In this document: positions 517 to 13,461 of the stretch, one piece after another
How the letters are laid out: each line of letters opens with the position of its first letter
Numbering within the stretch: position 1 is the first letter of the stretch
Assembly: GCF_008001235.1 (NCBI RefSeq)
Contig: NZ_CP040751.1
Coordinates: 1,719,001-1,783,000 of the forward strand
DNA length: 64,000 nucleotides
Direction of reading: 5' to 3'
Source: Salidesulfovibrio onnuriiensis
GTDB lineage: Bacteria; Desulfobacterota; Desulfovibrionia; Desulfovibrionales; Desulfovibrionaceae
Notes under the pieces: model-generated
Told to the model about the DNA's origin: nothing
The model's database searches: none
What the model saw: only the letters and a program-made list of their open reading frames with translations
Program-made: the position numbers and the translations under genes

Positions 517-533
517 CTGGCCCCATCTTTGCT
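517..533 (+). promoter_or_regulatory. Sigma-54 (-24/-12) promoter of ridA-dpaL
   Basis: CTGGCCCCATCTTTGCT fits the sigma-54 consensus: GG at 519-520 and GC at 531-532 with exactly ten bases between, in the context TGGC-N8-TTTGC. Transcription would start near 544, about 50 bases before the ridA ATG. Its core differs from the site at 35.06-35.08 kb at only one position between the GG and GC elements. Confidence 0.85.
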
Positions 534-8650: not shown

Positions 8651-9967
8651 CTAGTGCATCATGAACTTACCAATGAACAGGACGAACAGGAAGTAGGCAA
8701 GCACCGGAATTTCCTTCTGGCGTCCGGTCAGCAGCTTGAGCAGCACGTAGGACATCATGCCGAAGACGATGCCTTCGGCGATGGAGAAGGTGAACGGCAT
8801 CATGACGATGGTCAGGAAGGCCGGGATGGAGTCGGTGTATTCTTCCAGGTCGATGTTCTTGATGGGGGTCATCATGAACAGGCCGACGATGATCAGGGTC
8901 GGTGCGGTGGCGGCGCCCGGGATCAGCAGGAACAGGGGAGCCACGAACAGGGCCAGGCCGAAAAGGATGGCCACGGTCAGGGCGGTCAGGCCGGTGCGGC
9001 CGCCTTCGGCCACGCCCGCCGCGGATTCCACGTAGGTGGTCACGGTGGAGGTGCCCATCAGTGCGCCGAGGGTGGTGCCGATGGCGTCTGCGAACAGGGC
9101 CTGCTTGGCGCGGGGCACGCAGCCGTTCTCATCCAGCATGCAGGCCTTGGAGGCCACGCCCACCAGGGTGCCCACGGTATCGAACATGTCCACGAACAGG
9201 AAGGTCATCAGGACCAGGGCCATGTCGAAGGTGAAGATCTGGTGGAAGTCCAGCTGGAACAGGATCGGGGACATGTCGGGCATCTTGAACATGGCGGACA
9301 TGTCGAAGTGGGCCAGGTCGGTGACGCCGCAGAAGATGCCGATGACCGTGGAGGCCAGGATGCCGAAGAGCAGTGCGCCCTTGACCTTCTTGGCGATGAG
9401 GATGCCGGTGATGATCAGGCCGGACACGCACACCAGGGCCGGGCCGGAAATCATGTTGCCCAGGGTCACCAGGGTGGCGGGATGGGAGACCACGATGCCC
9501 GCATTTTTGAAGCCGATGAACGCGATGAACAATCCGATACCGGCCGAGATTGCGTGCTTGATGGGCAGCGGGATGCAGTTGACGATGGCCTCACGCAGGT
9601 TGGTGGCGGTCAGGATCAGGAAGATGATACCTTCCAGGAAGACCGCGGTGAGGGCGAACTGCCACGTGTAGCCCATGACCTGCACGACGGTGAAGGCGAA
9701 GAAGGCGTTGAGGCCCATGCCCGGAGCAAGGGCGAACGGCATGTTGGCCGCAAAGGCCATGAACAGGGTGGCGATGAAGGCGGAAAGGGCGGTGGCCCCG
9801 AAGACCGCTGCCGGATCCATGCCCGCTGCGGACAGGATTCCCGGGTTGACGGCCAGGATGTAGGCCATGGTCATGAATGTGGTCACGCCCGCGGTCATTT
9901 CCGTTTTGGGGTTCGTGCCGCATTTTGACAGGTTGAACCGTTTTTCCAAAAAGTCTTGGACAGACAT
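8651..9967 (-). CDS. NCS2-family guanine/hypoxanthine-type permease (AzgA branch)
   Basis: About 438 residues with 12 to 14 hydrophobic segments, an inner-membrane proton-coupled purine importer. AzgA-type hallmarks are the N-terminal TEMTAGVTTFMTMAYILAVN and the loop APGMGLNAFFAFTVV. Two adjacent ATGs exist (9970 and 9967). AAGGAG lies 4 bases before the first and 7 before the second, so the second is preferred. It is followed by the deaminase and maturation genes, consistent with guanine or hypoxanthine import feeding deamination and hydroxylation. Its 130-nt leader carries two hairpins. Substrate is inferred from the family branch. Confidence 0.9.
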   Translation of the reverse strand: MSVQDFLEKRFNLSKCGTNPKTEMTAGVTTFMTMAYILAVNPGILSAAGMDPAAVFGATALSAFIATLFMAFAANMPFALAPGMGLNAFFAFTVVQVMGYTWQFALTAVFLEGIIFLILTATNLREAIVNCIPLPIKHAISAGIGLFIAFIGFKNAGIVVSHPATLVTLGNMISGPALVCVSGLIITGILIAKKVKGALLFGILASTVIGIFCGVTDLAHFDMSAMFKMPDMSPILFQLDFHQIFTFDMALVLMTFLFVDMFDTVGTLVGVASKACMLDENGCVPRAKQALFADAIGTTLGALMGTSTVTTYVESAAGVAEGGRTGLTALTVAILFGLALFVAPLFLLIPGAATAPTLIIVGLFMMTPIKNIDLEEYTDSIPAFLTIVMMPFTFSIAEGIVFGMMSYVLLKLLTGRQKEIPVLAYFLFVLFIGKFMMH

Positions 9968-10002
9968 CATACATCTCCTTATAGGATAGTCGTACTTTTA
10001 CC

Positions 10003-10040
10003 GGTTCGGACAACTTCCTCACCCGTTAGTCTTCCGAACC
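10003..10040 (-). promoter_or_regulatory. Hairpin in the leader of the guanine-type permease gene
   Basis: GGTTCGGA (10003-10010) and TCCGAACC (10033-10040) form an 8-bp stem with a 22-nt loop on the - strand transcript. GTAC tetramers on both sides could extend it. It lies about 35 nt upstream of the start codon. It matches no riboswitch I recognise. Confidence 0.45.
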
Positions 10041-10053
10041 GTACCTCACCGTT

Positions 10054-10079
10054 CCCCTGCCGGATTCGCCCGGCAGGGG
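10054..10079. other. Perfect 10-bp hairpin after the first NAT permease gene
   Basis: CCCCTGCCGG (10054-10063) pairs with CCGGCAGGGG (10070-10079). It follows the permease stop codon by about 20 bases on the - strand, but the bases after it there are not T-rich (a TTCTTCTT run lies on the + strand side). Either a weak terminator or a 3'-end stabiliser. Confidence 0.5.
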
Positions 10080-10097
10080 TTCTTCTTGTCGCTATGG

Positions 10098-11504
10098 TTA
10101 TGCGTCTTCGCAGACGGCTTCCATTTCGTGGTGTTCCACGTCGTCCACGTCCATGGGCAGCACCAGGTTGGCGATGATGGCCGTGAACCCGCCGGTGGTG
10201 ATGGCGGAGCCGAAGATGGTCTGGGCGAACGCGGGCAGCTGCTTGACGATGTCCGGCGCGAAGACCACGCCCAGGCCCGTGCCGAAGGACAGGGCCATGA
10301 TGAGCATGGCGCGCCTGGTGATGGCCTGGGAAGCCATGATCTTGACGCCCGCTGCGGCCACAGAACCGAACAGGATCAGGGTCGCCCCGCCCAGCACGGG
10401 CTTGGGTATCAGGGAGAAGATACCGCCCACGATGGGGAAGATGCCCACCAGCACCAGGAGGCCCGCGATGTAGAAGCCCACATAGCGGCTGGCCACGCCC
10501 GTGAGCTGGATGACGCCGTTGTTCTGGCTGAAGGTGGTGTTGGGGAAGGTGTTGAACACGGCTGCCAGGGCGGAGTTGAAGCCGTCCGCCAGCACGCCGC
10601 CGGAAATGGTCTTGATGTATTCGGGGCCCTTGACCGGCTTGTTGGAAAGCATGGCCGTGGCGGTCAGGTCGCCGATGGATTCCACTATGGTGATGATGTA
10701 CAGGAAGGCCATGAGTATGAATCCGCTCCAGTCAAAGCCGATGCCGTACTTGAAGGGCATGGGGATGGACACCATCTGGACCTTTTCCAGCTGGGAGAAG
10801 TTCACGTCGCCCATGGCGGCGGAAATGGCGTAGCCCACCAGCAGGCCGATGGCCACGGAGCTGATGCGCACGAAGGGCCGCTTGCTGCGGTTCAGGACCA
10901 CGATGATGGCCAGGACCAGGCCGCCCAGGCACAGGTTCTTGATGGAGCCGAAGGAGCCGTCGCCCATGGCGGCGAATCCTCCGCCGAAGTCGATGATGCC
11001 CACCTTGATCAGGGAGAGCCCGATCATGGTCACGACGATGCCGCTGACCAGGGGCGGGAAGACCTTGCGCAGCATGGGCAGGAAGCGGGAGCAGGTCATC
11101 TGGATGATCGAACCCACCAGGGCCACGCCGCAGATGGTGGCCACGGCTTCCTCGGGGCTGCCGCCCTTGCCGATGACGCCCATGCCGATGGAAATGATGG
11201 TGCTCAGGAACGCGAAGCTGGTGCCCTGGATGCTGAGCATCCCGGAACCGAGCGGGCCGAATTTCCTGGCCTGGATGAAGGTGGCCACGCCCGAGACAAA
11301 CAGCGCCATGCTGATCATGTACGCGCTCATCTGGGGAGACATGCCCAACGCACCACTGATGATGATGGGCGGTGTCATGATGCCGATGAACATGGCCAGG
11401 AAATGCTGCAGGGCAGCGAACAGCGCGTCCTTCATCGGCGGGTTGTCGTTCAAGCCGTATATCAGCTCGAACTCTTTGTAGTTACAACTGGACTCCTGAC
11501 TCAT
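10098..11504 (-). CDS. NCS2/NAT-family xanthine or urate permease 1
   Basis: 468 residues, about 14 hydrophobic segments, a nucleobase:cation symporter of the UacT/XanQ type. The NAT signature is intact (FSQNNGVIQLTGVASR), as are the PFKYGIGFDWSGF and ESIGDLTATAMLS motifs lining the substrate site. The start is ATG 11504 (MSQESS) with a GAGGAG ribosome-binding site; the upstream extension is not used. It is a close paralogue of the next gene (11862-13277), with near-identical start region and core. Whether each carries urate, xanthine or uracil cannot be read directly; the context favours urate/xanthine. Confidence 0.92.
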   Translation of the reverse strand: MSQESSCNYKEFELIYGLNDNPPMKDALFAALQHFLAMFIGIMTPPIIISGALGMSPQMSAYMISMALFVSGVATFIQARKFGPLGSGMLSIQGTSFAFLSTIISIGMGVIGKGGSPEEAVATICGVALVGSIIQMTCSRFLPMLRKVFPPLVSGIVVTMIGLSLIKVGIIDFGGGFAAMGDGSFGSIKNLCLGGLVLAIIVVLNRSKRPFVRISSVAIGLLVGYAISAAMGDVNFSQLEKVQMVSIPMPFKYGIGFDWSGFILMAFLYIITIVESIGDLTATAMLSNKPVKGPEYIKTISGGVLADGFNSALAAVFNTFPNTTFSQNNGVIQLTGVASRYVGFYIAGLLVLVGIFPIVGGIFSLIPKPVLGGATLILFGSVAAAGVKIMASQAITRRAMLIMALSFGTGLGVVFAPDIVKQLPAFAQTIFGSAITTGGFTAIIANLVLPMDVDDVEHHEMEAVCEDA

Positions 11505-11588
11505 TGACCTCTCCTCATTCAGATTGGAGGTTTCCGACCCTGACAAATCCTGGCTGTTTACAGGCACCTGAATATAAGGCGACTAATT

Positions 11589-11628: not shown

Positions 11629-11686
11629 GGGAGCGCTTTAAACAGGGTCCCCTGAAAATCATCCGACCAGAGCCGGTTTATGTATG

Positions 11687-11712
11687 CGACCCGGGTGTCC
11701 CTTCCCGAATCG
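11687..11712 (-). promoter_or_regulatory. Conserved leader hairpin, copy in front of permease 1
   Basis: On the transcript CGAUUCGGG pairs with CCCGGGUCG around the loop AAGGGACA. The permease 2 leader has CGGUUCGGG, AAGGGGACA and CCCGAAUCG. The two stems differ by compensating changes, and AAGGCCCG precedes both, so the RNA fold appears to be under selection. It lies about 185 nt before the start codon. Confidence 0.55.
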
Positions 11713-11782
11713 GGCCTTCACGCCGGCCACGCCGACGTCGACAGCTAGAGGTTATTCCGTTGTACTTTCAGGTTTTCAAAGA

Positions 11783-11814
11783 GCGTCCCGCGGATGTTCT
11801 GTCCCGCGGGGCGC
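11783..11814 (-). terminator. Hairpin after permease 2, probable weak terminator
   Basis: GCGTCCCGCGG (11783-11793) pairs with CCGCGGGGCGC (11804-11814) over 11 bp including one G-T pair, about 48 nt after the permease 2 stop. On the - strand it is followed by TCTTTG, a poor T tract. Confidence 0.5.
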
Positions 11815-11861
11815 CCGGACACTACATATCTTTTTCCACGGCCTCAATGGCTTCCATTTCC

Positions 11862-13277
11862 TCAGGACCGCTGGGCGATCCAGGCAGCCGTGAGGTCGAC
11901 CTGTTCCTCCTCTGCCGGAGCCTCGTCCGGCAACACCAGGTTGGCGATGATGGCGGTGAATCCGCCGATGCTGACCGGGGAGGAAAGGACCGTTTTCGGG
12001 AACGCCGGCAGGGCGTTCAGGATTTCCGGCGCAAAGGTCACGCCCAGCCCGGTGCCGAAGGACAGGGCCAGAATGAGCATGCGCCGCCGGGTCAGGGCCT
12101 CTGTCGCCACTATCTTGATGCCCGCGGCGGCCACGGATCCGAACAGGATCAGGGTTGCTCCGCCGAGCACGGGCTTGGGAATCAGGGAGAAGATTCCGCC
12201 CACAACGGGGAAGATGCCCACCAGCACCAGGATGCCCGCGATGTAGAAGCCCACATGGCGACTGGCCACCCCAGTGAGCTGGATGACGCCGTTGTTCTGG
12301 CTGAAGGTGGTGCACGGGAAAGTGTTGAAGGTGGCGGCCAGTGCACAGTTGACCCCATCCCCCAGCACTCCGCCGGAAATGGTCTTGATATATTCCGGAC
12401 CGTTGACCGGTTTGTTGGAGAGCATGGCCGTGGCCGTGAGGTCTCCGATGGATTCCACAATCTGGATGATATACAGGAAGCCGATGAGCACGAAGGCGCT
12501 CCAGTCGAAGCCGATGCCGTATTTGAAGGGCACCGGAATGGCGACCATGCTCAACTTGCCGATCTTGGAGAAATCCACAAGCCCCATCAGGGTGGCCGCC
12601 GCATAACCCACCAGCAGGCCGATGGCCACGGAGCTGATGCGCACGAAGGGGCGCTTGCTGCGGTTGAGCACGATGATCGTCACGAGCACGAACATGCCCA
12701 GCCCCAGGTTTTCCAGGGACCCGAAACTCCCGTCTTTCATGGAGCTGAATCCGCCGCCCAGGTCGATGATCCCGGTCTTGATGAGAGACAGGCCGATCAT
12801 GGTCACGACGATGCCGCTGACCAGCGGGGGAAAGACCTTCCGAAGAAAGGGCAGGATCCGGGAACAGGTCATCTGTATCAGGGTGCCCGCCAGGCAGACG
12901 CCGCAGATGGTGGCCACGGCCTTTTCGGGCGTGCCGCCGTTGTCGATGATGCCGGAACCTATGGCGATGATGGTGGTCAGAAAGGCGAAGCTGGTTCCCT
13001 GGATGCTGAGCATGCCGGAACCAACCGGGCCGAATTTCCTGGCCTGGATAAAGGTGGCCAGGCCGGAGACGAACAGCGCCATGCTGATCAGGTAGGCGCT
13101 CATTTCAAGGGACATTCCCAGCGTATTGCTGATGATGATGGTGGGCGTCATGATGCCCACGAACATGGCCAGGAAATGCTGCAGGGCAGCAAATACGGAT
13201 TGGGGCACAGGAGGCTTGTCGTTCAGCTCGTAGATGAGTTTGAACTTGGTGCTGGTGGAACTGGAATCCTGACTCAT
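11862..13277 (-). CDS. NCS2/NAT-family xanthine or urate permease 2
   Basis: 471 residues, a paralogue of the permease at 10098-11504 across its length. It keeps the NAT signature FSQNNGVIQLTGVASR, the motif PFKYGIGFDWSAF and ESIGDLTATAMLS. ATG 13277 (MSQDSS) is chosen because GAGGAGAGGTCAATG, identical to the start context of permease 1, precedes it; the long upstream extension runs back through the terminator and is rejected. It is the first gene after the xdhC terminator. Tandem near-duplicates suggest split substrate or affinity, for example urate versus xanthine. Confidence 0.92.
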   Translation of the reverse strand: MSQDSSSTSTKFKLIYELNDKPPVPQSVFAALQHFLAMFVGIMTPTIIISNTLGMSLEMSAYLISMALFVSGLATFIQARKFGPVGSGMLSIQGTSFAFLTTIIAIGSGIIDNGGTPEKAVATICGVCLAGTLIQMTCSRILPFLRKVFPPLVSGIVVTMIGLSLIKTGIIDLGGGFSSMKDGSFGSLENLGLGMFVLVTIIVLNRSKRPFVRISSVAIGLLVGYAAATLMGLVDFSKIGKLSMVAIPVPFKYGIGFDWSAFVLIGFLYIIQIVESIGDLTATAMLSNKPVNGPEYIKTISGGVLGDGVNCALAATFNTFPCTTFSQNNGVIQLTGVASRHVGFYIAGILVLVGIFPVVGGIFSLIPKPVLGGATLILFGSVAAAGIKIVATEALTRRRMLILALSFGTGLGVTFAPEILNALPAFPKTVLSSPVSIGGFTAIIANLVLPDEAPAEEEQVDLTAAWIAQRS

Positions 13278-13331
13278 TGACCTCTCCTCGAATCGATTGG
13301 AGGTTTGCCTTTTCCCGGCGAGGCCGGGTGT

Positions 13332-13416
13332 GGTGTCGATTCGGGTGTCCCCTTCCCGAACCGGGCCTTGTTCGCCGGGCGGGCCGGCGACACCGGCAAC
13401 GAAACCTATCGTTGCC
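13332..13416 (-). promoter_or_regulatory. Structured leader of permease 2 containing the conserved hairpin
   Basis: From 5' to 3' on the transcript there is a perfect 8-bp hairpin GGCAACGA/TCGTTGCC (13395-13416). A closing stem GGUGUCG (13394-13388) with CGACACC (13338-13332) encloses the conserved hairpin CGGUUCGGG-AAGGGGACA-CCCGAAUCG (13337-13363). The whole lies 55-140 nt before the start codon. A purine-responsive RNA is a reasonable guess, but it matches no riboswitch consensus I know. Confidence 0.5.
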
Positions 13417-13418
13417 TG

Positions 13419-13454
13419 AAAAACCGCTCCGCCGCCGCATGGAGGGCGGAGCGG
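13419..13454 (-). terminator. Rho-independent terminator of the ygeY-xdhC operon
   Basis: CCGCTCCGCC and GGCGGAGCGG form a 10-bp stem with an 11-nt loop. On the - strand five T follow immediately. It lies 8 bases after the stop codon of the xdhC-type gene and ends the 21-kb run of closely spaced genes. Confidence 0.9.
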
Positions 13455-13461
13455 CATGTTT

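Follow-up and report, generated by a model that had tools for sequence, protein, structure and literature searches.

Each of two tandem NCS2/xanthine permease genes of Salidesulfovibrio onnuriiensis is preceded by a short leader element that is conserved in sequence, that occurs again ahead of the orthologous permease gene of one congener (G247), and that is absent elsewhere in the genomes we searched. This element is real, conserved and narrowly distributed, and judged from its sequence it probably acts as RNA. Our preferred explanation, to which we give a probability of about one half, is a lineage-restricted structured leader RNA, composed of the hairpins P0, P1 and P2, that would act in cis and post-transcriptionally on each permease message.

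The window, the whole stretch of 64 kb that was analyzed, is part of a 3.89-Mb genome assembled as a single contig. Its minus strand carries a purine-degradation cluster with genes for xanthine dehydrogenase subunits, YqeB, the two tandem permeases (A and B), an azgA-like protein, amidohydrolases, YqeC and an XdhC-type maturation factor. Both permeases score above the family cut-offs for xanthine permeases and for NCS2, and permease B is 75% identical to permease A in amino acid sequence. The nearest named relative with the same locus carries the database label uncultured Desulfovibrio (L031). Promoter matches of the sigma54 type, nearly identical in sequence, TGGCCCC(A/T)TCTTTGCT, mark both ends of the cluster (window 518-533 on the plus strand and 35078-35063 on the minus strand), and the same sites recur in G247 in the stretches that flank its cluster (L130:6250 on the plus strand and L131:13023 on the minus strand). 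Adjoining the cluster is a gene for a 590-aa probable sigma54-dependent activator (L129:1918-3690, plus strand, ending at window 189), whose features were judged by eye; it is a likely regulator of the cluster. No sigma54-type site was found in leader A or leader B, and a consensus scan of the stretch between the two permease genes gave no promoter-like site, so that this region may be intercistronic. The azgA leader (window 9970-10100, minus strand) contains two hairpins, the second being CGGUUCGGA...UCCGAACCG; counterparts of this second hairpin, paired but of different sequence, occur in G247 and G235, and G246 may have one too. The features of the locus are collected in Table 1.

Table 1. 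Positions within the 64-kb window of the leader features and permease genes
Feature	Positions	Strand	Sequence or remark
P1 hairpin, copy A	11687..11712	-	CGAUUCGGG-AAGGGACA-CCCGGGUCG; 9 pairs, 2 of them U-G
P1 hairpin, copy B	13337..13363	-	CGGUUCGGG-AAGGGGACA-CCCGAAUCG; 9 pairs, 1 of them G-U; loop 1 base longer than in A
P0 hairpin, copy A	11720..11738	-	ACGUCG.../CGGCGU
P0 hairpin, copy B	13372..13390	-	UCGCCG.../CGGCGA
AAGG linker P0-P1, copy A	11715..11718	-	invariant in A, B and G247
AAGG linker P0-P1, copy B	13366..13369	-	invariant in A, B and G247
P2 hairpin, copy A	11663..11676	-	CCGGC-UCUG-GUCGG; single one-sided change, weak support
P2 hairpin, copy B	13314..13328	-	CCCGGC-CUC-GCCGGG
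Closing helix, copy B only	13394-13388 with 13338-13332	-	GGUGUCG/CGACACC; overlaps P0 and P1 arms
Possible anti-Shine-Dalgarno pairing before permease A start	11508..11530	-	CCUCC...GAGGAGAGG
Possible anti-Shine-Dalgarno pairing before permease B start	13281..13304	-	ACCUCC...GAGGAGAGG
Terminator-like hairpin ahead of leader A	11778..11814	-	GCGCCCCGCGG...CCGCGGGACGC-UCUUU; read from sequence and folded; not flagged by consensus scan
Terminator-like hairpin ahead of leader B	13419..13455	-	GCCGCUCCGCC...GGCGGAGCGG then U5; read from sequence and folded; not flagged by consensus scan
NCS2/xanthine permease gene A	10098..11504	-	TIGR03173 438.7 bits, TIGR00801 386.8 bits
NCS2/xanthine permease gene B	11862..13277	-	TIGR03173 427 bits, TIGR00801 396 bits
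Further permease-like gene	8651-9970	-	no NCBIfam match; named azgA by resemblance

An earlier note on this DNA had described a hairpin, here called P1, upstream of both permease genes on the transcript strand and preceded in each case by AAGGCCCG; we find both copies, with this sequence in front of them, where the note had placed them. The exact P1 motif occurs twice in the whole 3.89-Mb genome, each time ahead of a xanthine/NCS2 permease gene, and the other purine genes of the genome lack it. A covariance model on the core scores 78.5 and 71.8 bits at the two copies, and its best score at any other place in the genome is 19.6 bits. Because there are only two exact copies and no close model score, the element is not a dispersed repeat of the REP type, which the note had named as one of two findings that would speak against its proposal. 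The element is kept in both leaders at different distances from the ATG, about 180 nt in leader A and about 60 nt in leader B. P1 alone is not unusually stable for its composition (z of -1.2 and -1.3 for the two copies), and a check for an intrinsic terminator found no U tract after its stem, which is followed in the copies by CAUACAUAA, ACACCACA and CUUCUAUAG.

The third copy, the only one in G247, lies about 180 nt ahead of the orthologous permease gene. All three copies therefore precede a xanthine-family permease in a putative 5' leader position, the place in front of a pathway gene that is generally looked for in a riboswitch. The covariance-model search of relatives that the earlier note had suggested thus yielded one more copy before an NCS2 gene and none further in 288 genomes of the family, 348 of the order (overlapping) and 395 of the phylum, which leaves three copies in two species. 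The next-best model matches in these samples scored no more than 32 bits; the ones that were examined lay within long open frames, apart from one in the congener G249. That match is a strong terminator-like hairpin, AAGGCCCGATCCGG-TAATA-CCGGGTCGGGCCTT (L118, G249:C6:207042-207089). Five other matches to the exact pattern in the 288 family genomes were taken as chance, since the sequence around them looks coding and no permease gene follows any of them. Two matches to a short pattern in viral contigs do not fit the model, plasmids gave no relevant match, and no copy was found at permease loci from other phyla (50 of 80 examined) or at five from the family. The leaders of the more distant permease orthologues of G235 and G246 lack the motif. 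By eye they resemble the leaders that carry it, but the similarity falls within that of shuffled sequences (p 0.06 to 0.65). They have other hairpins, among them one that pairs GCCCUGU/ACAGGGC in G246 (L013) and GCCCCGC/GCGGGGC in G235 (L014).

Comparison of the three leaders shows that selection has kept the core while its flanks diverged. The bodies of leaders A and B share local similarity beyond that of dinucleotide shuffles (p about 1e-6), as do leader B and that of G247 (p about 4e-9). The 28-nt core, AAGG...CACCCG, is identical at 26/28, 25/27 and 25/28 positions in the three leader comparisons (89-93%), against 55-67% identity at fourfold-degenerate sites of the permease genes. In the protein tree permease A groups with that of G247 and B falls outside, which places the duplication before the split of A and G247; the place of B relative to G235 and G246 is not settled by the tree.

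The earlier note had stated that the stem positions of P1 change together, and this is not borne out: the three pairs that vary between A and B are all changed on one side (A-U/G-U once, U-G/U-A twice), with pairing kept through G·U, and adding G247 still gives no two-sided change among three sequences and brings one U·U mismatch in G247. The larger fold closed by GGUGUCG/CGACACC, also described there, is present in copy B but lacking from copy A and from G247, and is not a common feature. Copy B is likewise the only one in which the 3' arm of P1 has an alternative partner in UCGAUUCG, which stands before the Shine-Dalgarno region. P0, which lies just upstream of P1 and was absent from the earlier note, has two of its six pairs changed on both sides among A, B and G247 (A-U/U-A at one, U-G/C-G/U-A at the other). 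A helix of equal length and with as many two-sided changes was reached by 1 of 2000 column shuffles, and MAFFT, from sequence alone, aligned the P0 columns identically. A control with shuffled 3' letters in the P0 and P1 alignment was not significant (322/500), a control that is uninformative with only three sequences.

P2 is a weak hairpin downstream of P1, and the copy in A was alone flagged in a terminator scan, at chance level. A CCUCC stretch upstream of the Shine-Dalgarno sequence GAGGAGAGG is common to the leaders of A, B and G247, and the fold energy of their pairing in A is no better than that of shuffles. In A and G247 one more hairpin lies downstream of P2, ahead of the start codon; it has two-sided changes but was equalled by 38/300 shuffles, and was rejected. 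A leader peptide or other coding sequence is excluded because the 1-base insertion of B inside the core does not keep the reading frame.

A structured RNA is partly supported, by the two-sided changes of P0 and by the changes in P1 and P2, most of which keep G-U pairing on the transcript strand, where the other strand would have A-C mismatches. Together with the position of the core on the transcript strand, the 1-base loop insertion in B and the common CCUCC, this pairing favours a structured RNA that acts on each permease message. We propose a leader RNA of about 80-100 nt in which P0, the AAGG linker, P1 with its conserved purine-rich loop, and P2 would be followed by the CCUCC stretch, able to pair with the Shine-Dalgarno region. 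The leader would tune, after transcription, the translation or stability of its own permease message, with the P1 loop and its flank as the place recognized by a protein or small molecule. Against this leader RNA stand the lack of any two-sided change in P1, its one U-U mismatch, an ordinary hairpin stability, the G235 and G246 orthologues without the motif, a very thin sample of three sequences from two species with its nonsignificant 3'-letter control, and the negative promoter scan between the two genes. If the element does act as RNA, it would amount to a small cis-regulatory leader, as yet unnamed, that controls purine uptake in Desulfovibrio-like bacteria; for now, with three copies known, the element is narrow and local, and its value is that of a compact candidate for probing and not of a demonstrated class.

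A serious rival, although we consider it rather unlikely, is that these are intercistronic hairpins of a GC-rich purine operon that stabilize or separate messages without any switching, their sequence being kept for processing or stability alone. It gains weight from azgA, which is also preceded by hairpins of changing, unrelated sequence whose pairing is conserved here, in G247, in G235 and probably in G246. The other strong hairpins of the G235 and G246 permease leaders, the lack of a promoter-like site in the permease leaders and the sigma54-type sites at the cluster ends fit it as well. What it leaves unexplained is the conservation of the P1 loop and flank in sequence between paralogues and between species. 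That same loop and flank, lying before xanthine-family permeases within a purine-degradation cluster, together with the possible anti-Shine-Dalgarno pairing, speak for the reading of the earlier note, a riboswitch for xanthine, urate or guanine. Ligand binding by this candidate is possible, with no covariation in P1 itself to support it, and we regard such a riboswitch as unlikely. No conserved long-range partner of the P1 loop was found in A, B or G247, the fold energies are ordinary, A and B differ in how far the element lies from the start codon and so have no shared expression platform, and neither the orthologues of G235 and G246 nor any other purine gene of the genome has the motif. The more specific form, a new lineage-restricted xanthine or urate riboswitch controlling NCS2 permeases, with a putative binding site made of the loop AAGGGACA and the 5' AAGG flank between two hairpins, is a little harder still to credit.

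The conserved arms of the inverted repeat could also be read as DNA, as an imperfect palindrome, CGATTCGGG-N8/9-CCCGAATCG, to which a transcription factor would bind, and the gene for a probable sigma54-dependent activator does flank the cluster. This operator appears improbable. Its spacer is 8 bases in A and G247 and 9 in B, an insertion that suggests a hairpin loop, where it is accommodated more easily than in a symmetric DNA site; each copy departs from DNA symmetry at one or two positions, whereas RNA pairing is intact in A and B. The window has no other close copy, including at the sigma54-type promoters of the cluster, and leaders A and B have no site of that type. We give very little credence to a CsrA site, in which a CsrA dimer would bridge the GGA of the P1 loop and that of the Shine-Dalgarno region GAGGAGAGG. 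The loop does contain AGGGA (A and G247) or GGGGA (B), and each of four genomes has one csrA gene; this variation in the GGA context, and the presence of CsrA in G235 and G246, which lack the motif, count against it.

The earlier note knew of no described family with this loop, and neither leader matches any plausible Rfam family, including the purine and NMT1 families, at the gathering threshold or at E up to 10. Our literature searches found no described element of this kind and no purine-responsive leader described in Desulfovibrio-like bacteria. Purine riboswitches (guanine, adenine and xanthine variant) precede purine transporter genes in other bacteria and fold as a three-way junction with kissing loops; in contrast, P0, P1 and P2 are separate hairpins. 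Among the intrinsic terminators of the genus, the G249 hairpin resembles the 5' part of the motif, while the element described here has neither the 3' arm CGGGCCTT nor a U tract. The NMT1 motif, or xanthine-I riboswitch, has been reported in alpha-, beta- and gammaproteobacteria, with conserved nucleotides in internal junctions and with dioxygenases and tauA-type and nucleoside transporters, not NCS2 permeases, as its neighbours (PMC7373994). The conserved nucleotides of the present element instead lie in the loop of a hairpin and in the flank 5' to it, and what the two have in common is a short, hairpin-based structured leader tied to purine degradation genes.
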